From assembly GCF_000236585.1 (NCBI RefSeq), contig NC_017278.1:1364001-1428000 (forward strand): a DNA stretch of 64,000 nt. Reading direction: 5' to 3'. This document shows, piece after piece, positions 13,389 through 45,968 of the stretch. Within the stretch, counting starts at the first letter, position 1. The number at the start of each line of letters is the position of its first letter. The position numbers and the translations under genes are program-made. This DNA is from Thermus sp. CCB_US3_UF1. GTDB taxonomy: Bacteria; Deinococcota; Deinococci; Deinococcales; Thermaceae. Below the pieces are notes generated by a model that ran no database searches, was not told the DNA's origin, and was given only the letters and a program-made list of their open reading frames with translations.

Positions 13389-13409
13389 GGATGCGCCCTC
13401 CTTATACTC

Positions 13410-13443
13410 GGTAAAAGTTTACCCCACTTCCCCACCCAAGCAA
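13410..13443 (-). promoter_or_regulatory. Promoter of the EtfD-like gene with a palindromic operator
   Basis: Minus strand: -35 TTGCTT (13438-13443), a 16-base spacer, then -10 TAAACT (13416-13421). The -10 lies inside the perfect inverted repeat GGTAAA-AG-TTTACC (13410-13423), a likely repressor site. The regulator is unknown; TetR-type fatty-acid regulators are one possibility. Confidence 0.5.
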
Positions 13444-15720: not shown

Positions 15721-15726
15721 AGTCTA
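15721..15726 (-). promoter_or_regulatory. Candidate -10 (TAGACT) overlapping the accC stop codon
   Basis: The accC stop TAG (15724-15726) forms the first half of TAGACT, 6 bases before the Asp23-type gene's GTG. It would give the nusB-folD part of the cluster its own leaderless transcript. Confidence 0.45.
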
Positions 15727-17061
15727 CAACTCCATGCGCCGGGCCACGAAGTTGGTGTAGACCGCCCCCCGGCGGAAGAAGGCGTTTTGCAGGACCTTCT
15801 GGTGGAAGGGGATGGTGGTCTTGAGCCCCGGCCCCTCGATCACCGTCTCGGAAAGGGCCCGCTCCATCCGCCGTATGGCCTCCTCCCGGGTGGGGGCCCA
15901 GGCGATGACCTTGGCGATGAGGCTGTCGTAGTGGGGCGGGATCTGGTAGCCCGCGTAGAGGTGGCTGTCCACCCGGATGCCGGGGCCACCCGGGAAAAGC
16001 AGGGTCTCCACCTTGCCGATGGAGGGCCTAAAGCCCTTCTCTGGGTCCTCGGCGTTGATGCGCACCTCAATGGCGTGGCCCCGGACCCCGATATCCTCCT
16101 GCTTGAGCCAAAGCTTCTCCCCCTGGGCGATGCGGAACTGGGCCTGGACCAGGTCCACGCCGGTGATCATCTCCGTGATGGGGTGCTCCACCTGGATGCG
16201 GGTGTTCATCTCGATGAAGTAGAAGTTCCCCTCCTTGTCCACCAAGAACTCCAGGGTGCCCGCGGACACGTAGCCCACGTGCCGGGCCAGGCGGGCCGCG
16301 GCCTCGGCGATGGCCTTGCGGGTTTCCAAGGGGAGGACGCTGGGGGCTTCCTCCAAGAGCTTCTGGTGCCGCCTTTGGATGGAGCAGTCCCGCTCCCAAA
16401 GGTGGATGACGTTCTCCCCATCCCCCAGGACCTGGATCTCGATGTGCTTGGGCTCCTCAATGTACTTCTCCAGGTAGACCGCGGGGTTGCCAAAGGCGGC
16501 CCGGGCCTCCTCCTGGGCCTGCTGGATGGCCCGCTCCAACTCCTCCTCGGTGTGCACCACCCGCATCCCCCGGCCCCCACCCCCGGCGGAAGCCTTGAGG
16601 ATCACGGGGTAGCCGATCTCCGCGGCCGCCCGCTTGGCCTCCTCCACGCCCTGAAGCTCGTCCGTGCCCGGCACCGTGGGCACCCCGGCCTCCCGGGCCA
16701 CCTTCCGGGCCGTGGCCTTGTCGCCCAGGGCCCGCATGTTCTCCGGGGTAGGACCGATGAAGGTGATGCCGTGCTCGCGGCACATCTCGGCGAAGGTGGC
16801 GTTTTCCGCCAGGAAGCCGTAGCCGGGGTGGATGGCGTCCGCCCCGGTCACGATGGCCGCGGAAAGGAGGTTGGGGATGTTGAGGTAGCTCTGCCCCGAA
16901 GGGGGCGGCCCGATGCAGATGGCCTCGTCCGCCAGGAGGACGGGCAGGCTCTTCTCGTCGGCGGTGGAGTGGGCCACCACGGTTTTGAGGCCCAGTTCCT
17001 TGGCGGCCCGGATGATCCTGAGGGCGATCTCGCCGCGGTTGGCAATCAGGACCTTCCTCAT
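15724..17061 (-). CDS. accC: Biotin carboxylase subunit of acetyl-CoA carboxylase
   Basis: ATP-grasp enzyme (445 residues) that carboxylates biotin on AccB for malonyl-CoA synthesis. It has the N-terminal [19 protein letters not shown], the glycine-rich lid [33 protein letters not shown] and [16 protein letters not shown]. The open frame extends upstream, but the canonical start MRKVL at 17061 overlaps the accB stop as ATGA. The carboxyltransferase genes accA/accD are not in the window. Confidence 0.96.
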
Positions 17062-17504
17062 AGGGGCTGGATCAGGAAGAGGGGCTGGCCGTACTCCACC
17101 GGCTCCCCGTTTTGCACCAGGATCTTCTTCACGACGCCCGAAACCTCGGACTCGATCTCGTTCATCAGCTTCATGGCCTCGATGATGCAAAGGACCTGGC
17201 CCTTCTCCACCCGGTCCCCCTCTTTGACGTAGGGGGGGGCATCGGGGGCTGGGGCGCGGTAGAAGGTGCCCACGATGGGGGCCTTGACCTCCACGCACCC
17301 GGCGCACTCCTCCTCGGCCCGCTCCCTCTTGGGGGGCTCGGCTGGGGCGGGGGGCGGGGCGGCCACCACCTGGGGCACGGCCACCACCTGGACCTCGCCC
17401 CCCCGGCGGACGGTGAGCTTGTAGTCGGGGGTTTCCAGGGTAAGCTCGTTCACCCCGTGCTCCACCAAAGCCTGCAGGATCTGTTTTAGCTCCTTGGGCG
17501 TCAT
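17058..17504 (-). CDS. accB: Biotin carboxyl carrier protein
   Basis: A 148-residue carrier with an N-terminal helical part, an Ala/Pro linker (about 52-70) and a C-terminal biotinyl domain. The biotinylated lysine is in EAMKLMNE. Start ATG 17504 ([10 protein letters not shown]) is preferred over the longer frame because it gives the usual BCCP N-terminus, with AGG-type bases 6-12 bases upstream. It is read together with accC. Confidence 0.95.
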
Positions 17505-17568
17505 AGGCCTACCTCGTGGCATAAAGCTTACCCCAAAAGCCAAAGGGCGGGGCTTCTTTGGACTTGGT

Positions 17569-17603
17569 AAAAACCAGGGGGCCCAGGCGCACCTGGGCCC
17601 CCT
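17569..17603 (-). terminator. Intrinsic terminator of efp
   Basis: Perfect 12-bp stem (17576-17587 with 17592-17603), CGCA/TGCG loop, followed on the minus strand by GG and five T. It separates efp from accB. Confidence 0.85.
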
Positions 17604-39327: not shown

Positions 39328-39356
39328 CTTGCCGGGGCAAGGGTGGCGTGTTATCT
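39328..39356 (+). promoter_or_regulatory. Promoter of the importer operon with palindromic operator
   Basis: -35 TTGCCG (39329-39334), a 16-base spacer, -10 TTATCT (39351-39356). The -35 is inside the perfect inverted repeat CTTGCC-GG-GGCAAG (39328-39341), a probable regulator site. The mRNA would have a leader of about 26 bases with AAAGGAGG. Confidence 0.55.
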
Positions 39357-39388
39357 TTGGCCCAAGCACAACCCGAAAGGAGGCTGCC

Positions 39389-40573
39389 ATGAAACGCAGG
39401 GAGTTTTTGAAGAAGCTAGGCGTAGGTTCTTTGGCGGCGGTGGGGATGCCCTACATCGCCACCGCCCAGGCCAGGCCGGTGAAGCTGGCCACCCTCCTGC
39501 CCCTCACCGGCCCCTTCGCCTTCGCCGGCAACGCGGGACGGGAAGGCTTCGTGGACGGGGTGGACTACGTCAACGAGGTGCTGGGCGGCATCGGCGGAAG
39601 GCGACTGGAGCTCATCGTGGAGGACACGGGCTACGACGTGGCCCGGGGCACCGCGGCCTTCAACCGCGTGATCTCCCGCGAGCGGGCCGATGAGCTCCTT
39701 TTCGTCTACGGGGACTCCACCGGCCTCTCCAAGGCCCTGGCCCCGGAGATCGCCCGCATCGGCCTCCCCTACTCGGCCACCAGCTTCGCCAACGAGCTGG
39801 CCGACCCCAAGACCTACCCCACCATCTTCGTCTTCGGCCCCACCTACAACGACATGGTGGAGGCCCTGCTGCGGCAGATCCGCCTGCAGAAGGGCCGGGC
39901 CAAGATCGCCCTGGTCTACTCCAACACCGAGTTTGGCCGCGACCCCATCCCTTACGCCAAGGAACGGGCCAAGGCCTTGGGGATGGAGGTGGTCCACGAG
40001 GAGGTCACGCCCCCCGCCTTCACCGACGCTACCCCGGTGGTGCTGAACCTGCGCCGGGCCAACCCGGACTTCGTCATCCTCCAAGGCTACGCCCTCTCCG
40101 TGGAGCCCCTCATCCTGCGGGCGGCCCGGGAACAGGGCCTGCAGGCCCAGTTCATGGGCACCTACTACTCGGCGGAGCTGGCCCTCATCCAGCGGGCAGG
40201 GCCCGCAGCCGAGGGGTTCACCGTCACCTACCATAACGCCTACTGGTACGACACCCTGGTGCCCGCGGTGGACGAGATGCGCAAGTTCCGCCAGCGCAAG
40301 GGCCGGGACGCCTCCTACCGCCCCACCTACTACATGGGGAGCCTGGCGGTGGCCCTGGCCTTGGCCGAGGCCATGCGCCGGGCCGCGGCCGCGGGCAAGC
40401 TCACCCGGGCCGGGGTGGTGGAGTACCTGGAGAAGCTGGGGGACTACAACGGCCTCGGCCTGCAGCGGAGCTACGAGTTCGTGAACCACCGCCTGCCCTA
40501 CACCAAGCTCTACCGGGCTAGCGTCAAGGACGGGCGCTTCAACGCCATCAGCGACTGGATCAAGCTGGCCTAG
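39389..40573 (+). CDS. ABC importer substrate-binding protein, LIV type, Tat exported
   Basis: A 394-residue periplasmic binding protein of the branched-chain amino acid (Peripla_BP_6) family. The N-terminus MKRREFLKKLGVGSLAAVGMP is a twin-arginine signal with cleavage after about TAQA. The mature part starts VKLATLLPLTGPFAFAGNAGREG, the usual two-lobed fold. ATG 39389 follows AAAGGAGG. First gene of a six-gene operon that contains an acyl-CoA synthetase, so the ligand may be a carboxylic acid rather than leucine or valine (inference). Confidence 0.9.
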   Translation: MKRREFLKKLGVGSLAAVGMPYIATAQARPVKLATLLPLTGPFAFAGNAGREGFVDGVDYVNEVLGGIGGRRLELIVEDTGYDVARGTAAFNRVISRERADELLFVYGDSTGLSKALAPEIARIGLPYSATSFANELADPKTYPTIFVFGPTYNDMVEALLRQIRLQKGRAKIALVYSNTEFGRDPIPYAKERAKALGMEVVHEEVTPPAFTDATPVVLNLRRANPDFVILQGYALSVEPLILRAAREQGLQAQFMGTYYSAELALIQRAGPAAEGFTVTYHNAYWYDTLVPAVDEMRKFRQRKGRDASYRPTYYMGSLAVALALAEAMRRAAAAGKLTRAGVVEYLEKLGDYNGLGLQRSYEFVNHRLPYTKLYRASVKDGRFNAISDWIKLA

Positions 40574-40585
40574 AAACCCCTCGCT

Positions 40586-40611
40586 CCCGGGCCGGCAGGG
40601 GCCGGCCCGGG
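40586..40611 (+). promoter_or_regulatory. Strong intercistronic hairpin after the binding-protein gene
   Basis: Perfect 11-bp GC stem (40586-40596 with 40601-40611), 4-base loop, no T run. It probably protects the upstream mRNA so that the binding protein is made in excess over the membrane subunits. Confidence 0.55.
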
Positions 40612-40627
40612 GCTCACCGGAGGCAGC

Positions 40628-41503
40628 GTGTCCGACCTCTTGCCCTACCTGATTGGCGGCCTGGCCAACGGGGCCCTTTACGGCCTTCTGGCCCTGGGGT
40701 TCGTCCTCGTCTACCGGGCCACCAGCGTGGTGAACTTCGCCATCGGGGAGTTTCTTCTGGTGGGGGCCTACCTCACCTACTCCTTCGCCCTGTTCCTTCC
40801 CTTGGCCCTGGCCATCCTGGCCGCCTTGCCCCTGGCCTTCCTCTTCGGGGTCCTGGTGGAACGGGGGTTTGTCCGGCCCCTTCTGGGGCGGAACGTGGTG
40901 GCGGTGATCATGGCCACCATCGGCCTGGCCGCGGCCCTGGACGGAGGGGTGCAGCTCCTCTGGGGGCCCGACCTCAAGTACCTCTCGGGAAGCCTGCCGG
41001 ACCTGGGCTTCCAGGCCGGGGGGGTCTTCGTCTCCTCCCGGGCGGTGTGGAACCTGCTCCTGGCCCTCTCCTTGGGCCTAGGCCTCCTTTGGCTCTTGCG
41101 CCGGAGCCGCTACGGCATCCTGGTGCGGGCCATTTCCGAGCGGGAGGTGGCCGCCTTGGCCCTGGGCATCCCCACCGCCCGCCTGCTGGCGGGGGTCTGG
41201 GGAATCTCCGCCCTTTTGGCCACCTTGGCCGGGGCCCTTTTGGCGGTGGCCAGCGGGGTAGGGCACAACCTGGTCTTCTTCGGCATGAAGGTCTTCCCCG
41301 TGGCCATCCTGGGGGGGCTGGACTCCGTGGGCGGGGCCCTCCTCGCCGGGTTTCTGCTGGGGGCCCTCGAGGCCCTCTCCCAACGCTACCTGGAGCCCTT
41401 CCTTCCCGGGTTCACCGAGGCCCTGCCCTTCCTGGTGGTCCTCCTGGTCCTCCTGGTGCGGCCCTACGGCCTTTTGGGCGAGCGGCAGATTGAGAGGGTC
41501 TGA
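40628..41503 (+). CDS. ABC importer permease, LivH type
   Basis: A 291-residue inner-membrane permease with eight or so helices. It starts MSDLLPYLIGGLANGALYGLLALGFVL and has NFAIGEFLLVGAY and the ATPase-contact loop ISEREVAALALGIPTARLLAGVWGISA. GTG 40628 follows GGAGG. The stop overlaps the ATG of the next gene by one base (TGATG). Together with the LivM-type permease it forms the channel. Confidence 0.9.
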   Translation: MSDLLPYLIGGLANGALYGLLALGFVLVYRATSVVNFAIGEFLLVGAYLTYSFALFLPLALAILAALPLAFLFGVLVERGFVRPLLGRNVVAVIMATIGLAAALDGGVQLLWGPDLKYLSGSLPDLGFQAGGVFVSSRAVWNLLLALSLGLGLLWLLRRSRYGILVRAISEREVAALALGIPTARLLAGVWGISALLATLAGALLAVASGVGHNLVFFGMKVFPVAILGGLDSVGGALLAGFLLGALEALSQRYLEPFLPGFTEALPFLVVLLVLLVRPYGLLGERQIERV

Positions 41504-42279
41504 TGCTTTCCGTAGCCAACCTCAAGGTGGTCTACCGGGGGGTGATCCTGGCCCTGGACGGGGTCTCCCTGGAGGTGAGGGACGGGGAGGCGGTGGCCCT
41601 TCTGGGCCCCAACGGGGCGGGGAAAAGCTCCTTGGTGCGGGCCTTGGCCGGGCTTCTGCCCAAGTTTGAGGGACGGGTGCTGGACGGGCACATCCACCTC
41701 TTCGGCCAGGAAACCACCCACCTGGACCCGGTGCGCATCTCCCGCCTGGGCCTCACCGCCGTCCTCGAGGGCCGCCCCCTTTTCCGCTACCTCACGCCCG
41801 TGGAGAACCTGGTGGCCGCCGGCCACCGCCTCCCGCCAAGGGAGCTCAAGGAGGGCATGGAGGAGGTCTTCGCCCGCTTTCCCCGGCTCTACGAGCGCCG
41901 GCACGAGCAGGCGGGCTACCTCTCCGGGGGGGAGCAGCAGATGCTCCTTCTGGGCATGGCCCTCCTCACCCGGCCCAAGGTCCTGGTGGTGGACGAGCCC
42001 TCCTTGGGCCTGGCCCCCAGGCTGGTGGAAGAGGTGATGCGCACCCTGGATGCCCTGCGGCGGGAAAAGGGGCTCTCCCTCCTCCTGGTGGAGCAAAACG
42101 CCCGGGCCGCCCTAGCCGTGGTGGACCGGGTCTACGTGCTGGAGCGGGGCCGGGTGGTGTTTGAAGGGGACGCCAAGGCCGCCCAGGAGGACCAGGACGT
42201 GATGGAGTTCTACCTGGGCAAGGAGGAGGTGGGCTTCCGCCAGGCCCGGCGGTACCGCAGGCGGAAGCGCTGGGTCTAA
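41503..42279 (+). CDS. ABC importer ATPase, LivF type
   Basis: A 258-residue ATPase. Walker A is GPNGAGKSS, the signature is LSGGEQQMLLLGMAL, and Walker B is VLVVDEPSLGLAP, all intact. The C-terminal tail is unusually basic (RQARRYRRRKRW). It is translationally coupled to the permease. It would pair with the LivG-type ATPase encoded next. Confidence 0.9.
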   Translation: MLSVANLKVVYRGVILALDGVSLEVRDGEAVALLGPNGAGKSSLVRALAGLLPKFEGRVLDGHIHLFGQETTHLDPVRISRLGLTAVLEGRPLFRYLTPVENLVAAGHRLPPRELKEGMEEVFARFPRLYERRHEQAGYLSGGEQQMLLLGMALLTRPKVLVVDEPSLGLAPRLVEEVMRTLDALRREKGLSLLLVEQNARAALAVVDRVYVLERGRVVFEGDAKAAQEDQDVMEFYLGKEEVGFRQARRYRRRKRWV

Positions 42280-42289
42280 AGGGGGACAC

Positions 42290-43039
42290 ATGGAACCAAT
42301 CCTGGAAACCAGGAACCTCCACCTCTCCTTCAAGGGGGTCAAGGCCCTGACAGGGGTGGAGTTCGCCGTGCACAAAGGGGAGTTCTTCGCCGTCATCGGG
42401 CCCAACGGGGCGGGCAAGACCACCTTGCTCAACGTCCTTTCCGGGGTGTACGAGCCGGAGCGGGGGGAGGTCTTCTTCTTGGGGCAAAGCCTCAAGGGGA
42501 AAAGCCCCCAAGAAAGGGCCCGCATGGGCCTGGGACGCACCTTCCAGGGCCTGGAGATCTTCCGCGGGATGAGCGTCTTGGACAACGTGAAGCTGGGGGC
42601 GGAGCTGGCCCTGCCCGCCTACCCCCTGGCCCTTCCCCGGCGGGAACGGGAGGAAAGGCTCCGGGCCTGGGCCGAGGAGGTCCTGGACTACCTCCACCTT
42701 TCCCCCTTCCGCCACCTGCCCGCGGGGATGCTCCCCTACGGCCTGCAAAAGCGGGTGGAGGTGGCCCGGGCCTTGGCCGGGCGGCCCCAGCTCCTCCTCC
42801 TGGACGAGCCCATGGCCGGGCTTTCCCTGGAGGAAAAGCAGGACCTGGCCCGCTTCCTCCTGGACGCCCGAGAGGAGTGGGGTGTGACCCTGCTTTGGGT
42901 GGAGCACGACCTCCGGGCCGTTCTGGAGCTTTCCGACCGGGTCCTGGTCCTCTCCTACGGGGAAGCCCTCTACTACGGACCCCCCGAGGGGGTGCGCCGG
43001 GACCCCAAGGTGGTGGAAGCCTACCTGGGCCATGCGTGA
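42290..43039 (+). CDS. ABC importer ATPase, LivG type
   Basis: A 249-residue ATPase. Walker A is GPNGAGKTT, Walker B LLLLDEPMAGLS. The signature region PAGMLPYGLQKRVEVARALA has the LivG-like LPYGLQKR in place of LSGGQ. The Q-loop is GRTFQGLEIF. GGGGG before the ATG serves as the ribosome site. Six bases separate it from the acyl-CoA synthetase gene. Confidence 0.9.
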   Translation: MEPILETRNLHLSFKGVKALTGVEFAVHKGEFFAVIGPNGAGKTTLLNVLSGVYEPERGEVFFLGQSLKGKSPQERARMGLGRTFQGLEIFRGMSVLDNVKLGAELALPAYPLALPRREREERLRAWAEEVLDYLHLSPFRHLPAGMLPYGLQKRVEVARALAGRPQLLLLDEPMAGLSLEEKQDLARFLLDAREEWGVTLLWVEHDLRAVLELSDRVLVLSYGEALYYGPPEGVRRDPKVVEAYLGHA

Positions 43040-43045
43040 GGGAAG

Positions 43046-44899
43046 ATGAAAGGAACCCTGCTGGAACACCTGTACCGCCACGCCAAGGAGCGCCCCGAGG
43101 CCCCGGCCCTCCGGGTAAAGCGGCTTGGGGTGTGGCAGAAAACCTCCTGGAAGGACCTGCTGGACCGCGTCCTCCGCCTGGCGGGGGGCCTCCAGGCCCT
43201 GGGGCTCAAGGAGGGGGAGGTCCTGGCCATCCTGGGCCACAACGCCCCCGAGTGGGTGGAGGCCGAGCTGGCCGCCCAAGCCCTGGGGGCCTTGCCCATG
43301 GGCATCTACGCCGACGCCATGCCCGAGGAGGTGGGCTACTTCCTGGAGTTCACCGGGGCCAGGGGCATCGTGGTCTCCGACGAGGAGCAGCTGGATAAGG
43401 TCTACCCCCACCTGCACCTTTTGGACTTCGTCCTGGTGTGGGAGGAGGCGGGCATGACCCGGCACTTCCGCGGCAAGGTGCGGCGCTTCAGCGAGGCCCT
43501 GGGCGACCCCCGGGTGGGGGAGGAGGCCCTGAAGCGGCGCCGCCCCGAGGAAACCGCCCTCCTGGCCCCCACCTCGGGCACCACGGGCCGGAGCAAGCTG
43601 GCCATGCTCTCCCACCGCAACCTCCTGGCGGGGCACGAGGCCGTGGGCCGGGCCCTGGGCTTCCAGAAGGGGGCCTGGGTCTTCAGCTACCTCCCCCTGC
43701 CCTGGATCGGGGAGCAGATGCTCACCGTGGTGCAAAGCCTGGTGGAGGGCTCCACCGTCCATTTCCCCGAGGACCCCACCACCCTGCGGGAGGACCTGAA
43801 GGAGGTCCAGCCCGATTTCTTCCTGGCCCCGCCCAGGCTCTGGGAGGATATGGCCAGCCTCATCCAAAGCCGCATGGCCGACGCCGACTTCCTCAAGGCC
43901 TTCTTCTTTCGGGTGGGGATGGGCGCCCTGCTGGAGGGGGCGCAGCGGGAGTTCCGGGGGGAGAAGGTGGGCCTGTGGCTGGACCTCAAACGGGCCCTTT
44001 TCTACCCCCTCATCGCCCGGCCCCTGCGGGCCCGGCTGGGCCTGGCCGCTTGCCGCATTGCCGTCACCGGCGGGGCCCCCTTGGGGGGGGAGGTCTTCAC
44101 CTTCTTCCGCGCCCTGGGCCTGGACATCCGCCAGGTCTACGGCCAGTCGGAAACCGCCGCCGCCACCACCGCCCACGCCACTGGGGACGCCCCCCCGGAG
44201 ACCGTGGGCCCGCCCCTACCCGGAACCGAGGTTCGCCTGAGCGAGGAAGGGGAGATCCTGGTCCGGGGGCCCCAGGTCTTCCAGGGCTACTTCCGCCAGG
44301 AAAAGGCCACGGCGGAAAGCTTCACCGAGGATGGCTTCTTCCGCACGGGGGACGCCGGCTTCTTTGACGAGCGGGGCCACCTGGTGATCCTGGGCCGGGT
44401 GAAGGAGGTGGGGGCCCTTCTGGACGGCACCCGCTTCGCCCCGCAGTTCCTGGAAAACCGCCTCAAGTACTCCCCCTACATCCGCGAGGCCGTGGTCCTG
44501 GGCCACGGAAAGCCCTTCGTGAGCGCCCTCATTGAACTGGACCCGGAAAACGTGCAGAACTGGGCCCGCAAGCGGGGCATCCCCTTCACCACCTACCTCT
44601 CCCTCACCGAGCGCCCCGAGGTCAAGGCCCTCATCGCCGAGGAGATCCGCATGGTCAACCGGACCCTGCCCGAAAAGCTTCGCATCCAGCGCTTCGCCCT
44701 CTTGCCCAAGGAACTCCACCCCGACGACGAGGAGATCACCCGCACCCGCAAGGTGCGCCGCCAGGTGGTGGAAACCCGCTACGGCCCGGTGATCCAGGCC
44801 CTCTACGGGGAAGGGGGGCGGGTGGAGCTCACCCTGCCCATCCGCTACCTGGAGGGGGAAGGGCGGCTTTCCGCCAGCCTGGAAGTGCAGGAGGTGTGA
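43046..44899 (+). CDS. AMP-forming acyl-CoA synthetase (long-chain type) inside importer operon
   Basis: A 617-residue adenylate-forming enzyme that would activate a carboxylic acid with ATP and CoA. The P-loop is TSGTTGRSKLAMLSH, the A5 motif YGQSETAAA, the A7-A8 region YFRTGDAGFFDERGHLVILGRVKE in parts, and the C-terminal Lys region TRTRKVRR. The length and architecture fit FadD15-type long-chain acyl-CoA synthetases. It sits between the ATPase and LivM-type genes, with the same spacing as the other operon members, so it is an integral member. Substrate not known. Confidence 0.88.
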   Translation: MKGTLLEHLYRHAKERPEAPALRVKRLGVWQKTSWKDLLDRVLRLAGGLQALGLKEGEVLAILGHNAPEWVEAELAAQALGALPMGIYADAMPEEVGYFLEFTGARGIVVSDEEQLDKVYPHLHLLDFVLVWEEAGMTRHFRGKVRRFSEALGDPRVGEEALKRRRPEETALLAPTSGTTGRSKLAMLSHRNLLAGHEAVGRALGFQKGAWVFSYLPLPWIGEQMLTVVQSLVEGSTVHFPEDPTTLREDLKEVQPDFFLAPPRLWEDMASLIQSRMADADFLKAFFFRVGMGALLEGAQREFRGEKVGLWLDLKRALFYPLIARPLRARLGLAACRIAVTGGAPLGGEVFTFFRALGLDIRQVYGQSETAAATTAHATGDAPPETVGPPLPGTEVRLSEEGEILVRGPQVFQGYFRQEKATAESFTEDGFFRTGDAGFFDERGHLVILGRVKEVGALLDGTRFAPQFLENRLKYSPYIREAVVLGHGKPFVSALIELDPENVQNWARKRGIPFTTYLSLTERPEVKALIAEEIRMVNRTLPEKLRIQRFALLPKELHPDDEEITRTRKVRRQVVETRYGPVIQALYGEGGRVELTLPIRYLEGEGRLSASLEVQEV

Positions 44900-44900
44900 G

Positions 44901-45968
44901 GTGTACGCCCTGGCCAAGCACCTGGCCGATGCCTTCAGCCGCCGCTACGCCCGGGCGGTGCGGGAAACCTACCGGGAGGACGAGGCCTACGCCAGCACCC
45001 CCCTGGGCCGGGTGGCCCTTTTCCTCTTCCTGGTCCTCCTCTTCCTCCTGCCCCTCTTCCTGGGGCCTTACCCCATGTACGTGGCCACCCTGGTGGGGAT
45101 CGGGGCCCTTTCCGCCCTGGGCCTCCACCTCCTGGTGGGGGGGGCGGGGCAGATCTCCTTGGGGCATGCGGCCTTCATGGGGGTGGGGGCCTACGCCGCC
45201 AGCCACCTCTTCGGCCCCTTGGCCCCCTTGGGCATCCTGCTGGGCGGGGGGATCGCTGCCCTACTGGGGCTGGTCCTCGCCCTTCCCTCCTTGCGCATCA
45301 AGGGGGTCTACCTGGCCATCGCCACCTTAGCCTTCCAGTTCCTGGCGGACTACGTCTTCAAGAACTGGGAGGCGGTGACCGGGGGGATCCGGGGCCGCAC
45401 CCTGCCACCGCCCGAGCTTTTGGGCCTTCCCTTGGACTCCCCAGAGCGGCTTTGGTACCTCCTCCTCCTCTTCGCCCTGCCCCTTTTCTTCTATGGCAAG
45501 CGCCTCCTCATGACCCGGGCCGGGCGGGCCTTCATGGCCGTGCGGGACAACGACCTCTCCGCCCGGGTGGCGGGGGTGGACCTCACCCGGGTGAAGCTTC
45601 TGGCCTTCGCCCTGTCCGCCTTTTACGCTGGGGTGGCCGGGGGGCTTTTGGCCCAGCTCTACAAGGCGGTGACCCCGGAGTACTTCCCCCTTTCCGTGAG
45701 CATCCAGTACCTGGCCATGGTGATCGTGGGCGGGGCGGGGACGGTCCTGGGGGCGGTGCTGGGGGCTTTCTTCGTCCTCCTCATCCCCGAGGTGCTCAAC
45801 AGCTACGTGGGGGCCCTGGGCCCCCAGTACGCCGCCGCCCTGGCCGCCTGGCGCAACGTGATCTTCGGCCTCCTCATCCTCTTCTTCCTCATCCTCGAGC
45901 CCCTGGGGCTGGTGGGGCTATGGGGCCGGATCCGCAACTACTTCCGCACCTGGCCCCTGCCCTACTAG
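44901..45968 (+). CDS. ABC importer permease, LivM type
   Basis: A 355-residue membrane permease, with a longer N-terminal cytosolic extension (about 35 residues, RRYARAVRETYREDEAYAS) before the first helix than I expect for LivM. Conserved blocks are LLVGGAGQISLGHAAFMGVGAY, GVYLAIATLAF and AVRDNDLSARVAGVDLTRVKLLAF. GTG 44901 begins one base after the synthetase stop. Its TAG interlocks with the plsY stop (CTAG). Confidence 0.9.
   Translation: MYALAKHLADAFSRRYARAVRETYREDEAYASTPLGRVALFLFLVLLFLLPLFLGPYPMYVATLVGIGALSALGLHLLVGGAGQISLGHAAFMGVGAYAASHLFGPLAPLGILLGGGIAALLGLVLALPSLRIKGVYLAIATLAFQFLADYVFKNWEAVTGGIRGRTLPPPELLGLPLDSPERLWYLLLLFALPLFFYGKRLLMTRAGRAFMAVRDNDLSARVAGVDLTRVKLLAFALSAFYAGVAGGLLAQLYKAVTPEYFPLSVSIQYLAMVIVGGAGTVLGAVLGAFFVLLIPEVLNSYVGALGPQYAAALAAWRNVIFGLLILFFLILEPLGLVGLWGRIRNYFRTWPLPY

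Follow-up and report, generated by a model that had tools for sequence, protein, structure and literature searches.

A LIV-type ABC importer operon with a built-in acyl-CoA synthetase in Thermus: a candidate importer of fatty-acid-like carboxylic acids

In the vectorial acylation system of Escherichia coli, FadL/FadD, uptake is pulled by conversion to acyl-CoA. LIV-type transport proteins have been connected to CoA ligases in Rhodopseudomonas palustris, where the binding proteins RPA3723/3724 bind fatty and dicarboxylic acids and are encoded beside pimFABCDE, whose ligase PimA has a substrate profile that matches these ligands (PMC3223731). In the same organism, the p-coumarate binding protein RPA1789 is encoded near the coumarate-CoA ligase RPA1787, and few non-matching COG0683 proteins respond to Leu, Ile or Val (PMC3223731). 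In Thermus thermophilus HB8, TTHA0448 of the operon TTHA0447-0451 is annotated as a long-chain-fatty-acid-CoA ligase, and the operon is uncharacterised (PMC8465061).

Here we describe an operon of Thermus sp. CCB_US3_UF1 (genome G000; 2.26 Mb, 99.96% complete) that lies in a stretch of 64,000 nucleotides, hereafter the window (G000:C2:1364001-1428000); positions given without a locus name are those of the window. We consider it moderately probable that this operon encodes an importer of the LIV/HAAT family for a fatty-acid-like carboxylic acid together with the synthetase that activates this acid.

Gene content and organization of the operon

Six genes on the + strand, livK, livH, livF, livG, an acyl-CoA synthetase gene and livM, form one compact operon. 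livK (39389-40573) encodes a LivK-type substrate-binding protein of 394 aa (Peripla_BP_6, PF13458, 188.8 bits) and is followed by genes for a LivH-type permease (livH, 40628-41503; BPD_transp_2, PF02653), a LivF-type ATPase (livF, 41503-42279; ABC_tran, PF00005, best curated match LivF), a LivG-type ATPase (livG, 42290-43039; PF00005 and BCA_ABC_TP_C, best curated match LivG), an AMP-forming acyl-CoA synthetase of the LIV-linked clade described below (617 aa, 43046-44899; AMP-binding, 219 bits, and AMP-binding_C_3) and a LivM-type permease (livM, 44901-45968; BPD_transp_2, PF02653). The coordinates and Pfam matches of all six genes agree with a first-pass annotation of the window, which had placed a binding protein, two permeases and two ATPases in one operon with the synthetase between livG and livM. 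The components of the LIV/HAAT ABC importer family (TC 3.A.1.4) were all present and above Pfam cut-offs, and by family the operon parts are assigned as an ATP-driven solute importer. A PlsY-type acyltransferase gene is the convergent neighbor, its 3' end overlapping that of livM.

The same annotation had given all gaps after the first as 1-10 bases. This holds for livF-livG (10 nt), livG-synthetase (6 nt) and synthetase-livM (1 nt), whereas livH and livF overlap by 1 nt (TGATG). The first gap, of 54 nt between livK and livH, contains a G+C hairpin with an 11-bp stem and a 4-nt loop (40586-40611, + strand; window z -1.44), and comparable hairpins of other sequence were found in two of four further Thermus genomes that were folded (L057, L058). 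An intrinsic terminator 3' of livK was ruled out, as the hairpin is without a T-run. Upstream of livK, we read from the sequence a probable operon promoter, TTGCCG and TATCTT separated by a 17-nt spacer (39329-39357, + strand); it scored under the threshold of a consensus scan. A TGnTATnnT box is similarly placed in the livK promoters of other Thermus orthologs.

All ANL motifs are intact in the synthetase, namely the P-loop TSGTTG..K, YGQSE, TGD and the C-terminal catalytic lysine, and residues T176-T180, K184, G366, E369, D436, R451 and the catalytic K569 were invariant among 18 aligned sequences. In the P-loop, TSGTTGRSKLAMLSH, Ser and Leu stand where Pro and Gly are usual, a substitution typical of the orthologs of the window operon (hereafter A operons). 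An AlphaFold2 model of the enzyme (pLDDT 90.9) matched the ANL fold; the matched proteins (luciferase, MatB, CAR, 4CL) are generic ANL enzymes and uninformative on chain length. The best curated model was FadD11 (NCBIfam NF038343), at 290 bits short of its cut-off of 950, and the earlier label "FadD15-like" is therefore apt as a broad class and too narrow as a closer assignment. In domain architecture the enzyme is of the long AMP-binding_C_3 form, unlike the benzoate or 4-coumarate ligase type. CoA thioester formation is its predicted activity, assigned by family.

Conservation of the operon and of the synthetase clade

Orthologs of the synthetase (at least 63% identity) were found in 51 of 111 Deinococcota genomes. 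Almost every Thermus genome has one, as do the majority of the remaining genomes of the family and a small number from a second family. LivK orthologs (49/111) and LivM orthologs (50/111) occurred in the same genomes, and the mismatched genomes (G064, G042 and G012) are fragmented assemblies; all three proteins were jointly absent from G054, G028 and G034. The order K-H-F-G-ACS-M, in which ACS denotes the synthetase, was identical in ten of ten Thermaceae loci read outside the window. The operon is not a chance assembly, because its gene content and order are kept down to 63-70% identity. Together, conserved order and joint presence and absence across this divergence show, on comparative genomic grounds, that the transporter and the synthetase form one functional unit.

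Three Thermus genomes (G051, G052 and G061) have the synthetase split into two frames (L056:7494-9343, L057:6953-9548 and L058:5607-8997). The breaks differ between them, and LivG (G052) and LivF (G061) are split as well, so that sequencing errors or decay explain these cases better than a programmed frameshift. Genome G069 carries two A-type livK copies with 88% and 81% identity (L186 and L188; G069:C1:214176-215354 and 168783-169961), the second with a different promoter, and a single A-type synthetase.

The synthetase tree was built from the best 80 of at least 482 matches together with fetched relatives, and its counts are not frequencies. In this tree the window synthetase falls in the starred clade (95), of which 49 of 50 rows are LIV-linked, and the LIV-linkage label changes twice on the tree compared to a mean of 30 changes when shuffled. 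Among these best 80 of at least 482 matches, the LIV-linked clade was found in Proteobacteria, Thermodesulfobacteriota, Bacillota, Bacteroidota and Deinococcota, and FadD15/FadD11-like relatives outside the clade were not LIV neighbors. Its members include Thermaceae and Deinococcus-like genomes, nearly every locus fetched was LIV-linked, and of 34 loci from other phyla, 31 have the synthetase adjoining LivG. The arrangement is neither unique to Thermus nor rare, because the clade is LIV-linked across several phyla. With these loci, and with two further LIV-plus-ligase operons in the same genome, the unusual arrangement implied by the first-pass annotation is not upheld; that annotation had itself remarked that LIV operons with AMP ligases occur elsewhere. 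Our search of the literature, which covered few subscription papers and is therefore weak evidence of absence, found no assigned LIV-plus-synthetase operon of this clade.

An open reading frame 3' of LivF recurs in many proteobacterial LIV-synthetase clusters (L092:17581-19134, with homologs in about 19 such loci); the one examined encodes a PaaK-type AMP ligase, giving two CoA ligases per transport operon. Some alphaproteobacterial LIV-synthetase loci (L085:17866-20648, L145:17575-20735 and L096) have genes for an acyl-CoA dehydrogenase and a carboxyl transferase nearby, a hint that branched or isoprenoid acids are degraded by these organisms.

The two further LIV operons with a built-in ligase in the Thermus sp. 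CCB_US3_UF1 genome are found at L009 and L012. Paralog operon B (L009, C2:1681600-1688500) has the order G-ACS-H-M-K-F and a synthetase about 43% identical to that of the window; in T. thermophilus HB8 it corresponds to the orthologous operon TTHA0447-0451 (PMC8465061). The published TTHA0447 promoter sequence is present in L166, which marks genome G070 as T. thermophilus or a very near relative. The third operon (L012:9732-16184; G000:C2:114731-121183) has the order SBP-H-M-ligase-G-F, and its ligase, encoded between LivM and LivG, resembles FadD/PimA types. A LivM-ligase fusion in this operon (a 914-aa open frame) was ruled out, LivM and the ligase being in different frames. Just upstream of the window, a LIV operon (L011:3532-12331; G000:C2:1348531-1357330) adjoins KAS III-like and 3-oxoadipate enol-lactonase-like genes. 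Another LIV operon, L016 (L016:3325-8381; G000:C2:655324-660380), is without a synthetase.

FadR-like operators in front of LIV operons

Fatty acyl-CoA releases FadR from DNA. The published consensus of T. thermophilus FadR is TTRNACYNRGTNYAA, and the published regulon lists no LIV operon (PMC5597230); a link between FadR and a LIV operon is therefore new here. We tested a single hypothesis by scoring promoters against this consensus with positive and negative controls, and the counts come from promoters of related genomes, which are not independent. Sites with at most one mismatch were present in 20 of 21 fatty-acid-CoA ligase promoters, the positive control, and in none of 21 promoters of the synthetase-free LIV operon (L016), the negative control. 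Within Thermus, 7 of 24 A-operon promoters carried a site with at most one mismatch and 13 of 24 a site with at most two. All 13 sites overlap the -10/+1 region, at positions -30 to -34 relative to the start of livK; of 2519 permuted palindromes matched in composition, none performed as well. Outside the genus, 13 of 20 genomes carried TTGAACCGGGTACAC or a close variant with at most one mismatch, and 0 to 3 of 2519 permuted palindromes were as good. These operators differ in place from those of Thermus, being found immediately 5' of the -10 box (-71 to -86), and they vary only at the degenerate consensus positions 3, 4 and 8, a pattern favored by the choice of sites with at most one mismatch. 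Besides TTGAACCGGGTACAC, the candidate operators of A operons comprise TTGCACCGAGCACAA and the site in the window itself, TTGGCCCAAGCACAA (39357-39371, + strand), a degenerate FadR-like site with two mismatches, A5C and T11C, both at specified bases; with such a site, FadR may or may not control the window's own copy of the operon.

Among B-operon promoters, 8 of 21 had a site with at most one mismatch, including that of the window genome (one mismatch) at -103, with the operator TTAGACCCGGTACAC; this site lies towards rpmH and may serve the rpmH-side promoter. The third LIV-plus-ligase operon (L012) has no FadR-like site near its start. Genome-wide, sites with at most one mismatch showed no enrichment (27 compared to 25 for a reversed control pattern), and some of them directly precede fatty-acid genes, including the ligases at L009:2759 and L010:8542. 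Two further sites with one mismatch lie in the window. One (13402-13416) is found 14 bp before the gene of a 661-aa Fe-S protein with CCG domains, which resembles TTHA1117, a published FadR target (PMC5597230); the other (17558-17572) is upstream of a biotin carboxylase gene (15724-17307, - strand), where a FadR link to acyl-CoA carboxylation is possible.

FadR-type control could also serve lipid turnover. The synthetase might re-activate fatty acids from the cell's own lipids and be co-regulated with an unrelated importer, an operon partnership without flux coupling; consistent with this, the transporter and the synthetase share no fusion or domain, and the convergent neighbor plsY is an acyltransferase gene. 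We regard this explanation as improbable, because the transporter and the synthetase remain partnered across phyla and in several different gene orders, and disappear together.

The ligand, the proposed route and known systems

The leader of LivK, MKRREFLKK, is Tat-like when read by eye, with a twin arginine followed by a hydrophobic stretch; the arginine pair was conserved in ten of ten A orthologs aligned, in line with the Tat signal of the first-pass annotation, and the leader of the paralog LivK-B is Sec-like. The structure nearest to an AlphaFold2 model of LivK (pLDDT 90.4) was 3lkb, which superposes on the model over 359 residues with an rmsd of 2.3 (Z 44.0). 3lkb is the LivK-B ortholog from T. 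thermophilus (678 bits), and its title reads "with bound valine". The title of 3lkb and the LIV family membership of all transport parts would suit an importer of branched-chain amino acids or short branched acids, in which LivK would bind valine-like ligands and the synthetase would use branched acids that are unrelated to these or derived from them. We consider such an importer quite unlikely, as several observations speak against it. All curated branched-chain amino acid models scored far under their cut-offs (binding protein 76 vs 477 bits, LivH 90 vs 379, LivF 187 vs 441, LivG 214 vs 362 and LivM 129 vs 366). Furthermore, LivJ Glu226, the acidic residue that holds the amino group of the ligand, corresponds to Tyr259 in all A-type LivK orthologs. 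Of the genome's nine LIV-type binding proteins, only that of L016 keeps an acid (Asp) in this column; it alone keeps LivJ-like ligand residues, and its operon has neither a synthetase nor a FadR-like site; because of this residue, L016 is the probable true branched-chain amino acid importer. However, 3lkb, titled with valine, has His at the Glu226 position, so an acid there is not strictly required and the residue argument is suggestive. We used only the Glu226 column as ligand-residue evidence, because the columns of LivJ Ser79, Ala100 and Thr102 shift with the alignment.

LIV-fold binders with aromatic acids bound (4evs, 4f8j, 4eyo and 4q6w) were also close structural matches to LivK. Together with the p-coumarate protein RPA1789 and the PaaK-type ligase that follows LivF in proteobacterial LIV-synthetase operons, they make an importer of aromatic or aryl-alkanoic acids conceivable, whose LivK would bind acids resembling benzoate, phenylacetate or cinnamate and whose synthetase would make aryl-CoA. 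Aromatic catabolism genes are, however, absent from the operon and its flanks, the long form of the synthetase is not that of a benzoate or 4-coumarate ligase, and FadR-like operators favor fatty acids; we judge an aromatic ligand unlikely.

A carboxylic acid, proposed earlier as fatty, aromatic or isoprenoid, is still the best reading of the ligand as far as sequence evidence goes, and among these options a fatty acid is preferred because FadR-like operators precede the operon in relatives. The most likely ligand is a fatty acid of medium or long chain, perhaps iso-branched. Tat-exported LivK would catch the free acid in the periplasm, and LivH, LivM, LivG and LivF, by family, would carry it inward with ATP hydrolysis. 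In the cytoplasm the synthetase, by family and with its motifs present, would convert the acid via acyl-AMP to acyl-CoA, thereby trapping it, and the product could enter beta-oxidation or lipid synthesis, for which genes lie elsewhere in the genome. The genome encodes four thiolases and nine acyl-CoA dehydrogenases; no catabolic genes were found within the operon. The transporter and the synthetase would be coupled through their shared operon; transport would consume ATP, and activation would in addition convert ATP to AMP. In many Thermaceae, as judged from the operators of relatives and with the site degenerate here, FadR may repress the operon until substrate arrives. The ligand, the activity, trapping on entry and the coupling are thus what we infer for this locus.

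More tentatively, we suggest as a possibility that exogenous fatty acids enter Thermaceae via ATP-driven LIV importers with their own synthetase, FadR-repressed until the acyl-CoA product releases the repressor, and that the LIV-linked clade, present in several phyla, is the signature of a widely distributed, as yet unassigned group of acid importers that carry their own CoA-activating enzyme. If so, Thermaceae possess an ABC route dedicated to free fatty acids or similar acids, and the present label is wrong for a conserved operon class in several phyla, with a large set of LIV transporters probably mis-annotated. The A and B operons are candidate additions to the Thermus FadR regulon, and the FadR-like operators make an unassigned transporter directly testable.

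LIV importers paired with CoA ligases were already known from Rhodopseudomonas; new here are the FadR-like operators and the finding that synthetases of this type are LIV-linked across their clade. TTHA0447-0451 resembles the window operon in combining LIV importer genes and a same-clade synthetase in one operon, and differs in gene order, in its Sec-type rather than Tat-type binding protein and in the divergence of its synthetase noted above for operon B. RPA3723/3724 and PimA likewise pair a LIV-type binding protein with an acyl-CoA ligase alongside, but this ligase is of another subfamily and belongs to a neighboring catabolic operon that includes beta-oxidation enzymes, and no FadR link is known. 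RPA1789 and RPA1787, like the proposed reading of the window operon, join a LIV importer and a CoA ligase for one acid, in that case the aromatic substrate p-coumarate and with a hydratase/lyase in the cluster. The structure 4n03 from Thermomonospora curvata, titled fatty acid ABC transporter substrate-binding protein, shares the LIV fold with LivK (rank 2 in Foldseek and rank 5 in VIA-align against the LivK model) at 20-21% identity, and its place among the closest folds speaks for a fatty-acid ligand. Finally, FadL/FadD and the window operon would be alike in the pull exerted by acyl-CoA formation, whereas FadL/FadD works without an ABC importer and with other transport proteins.
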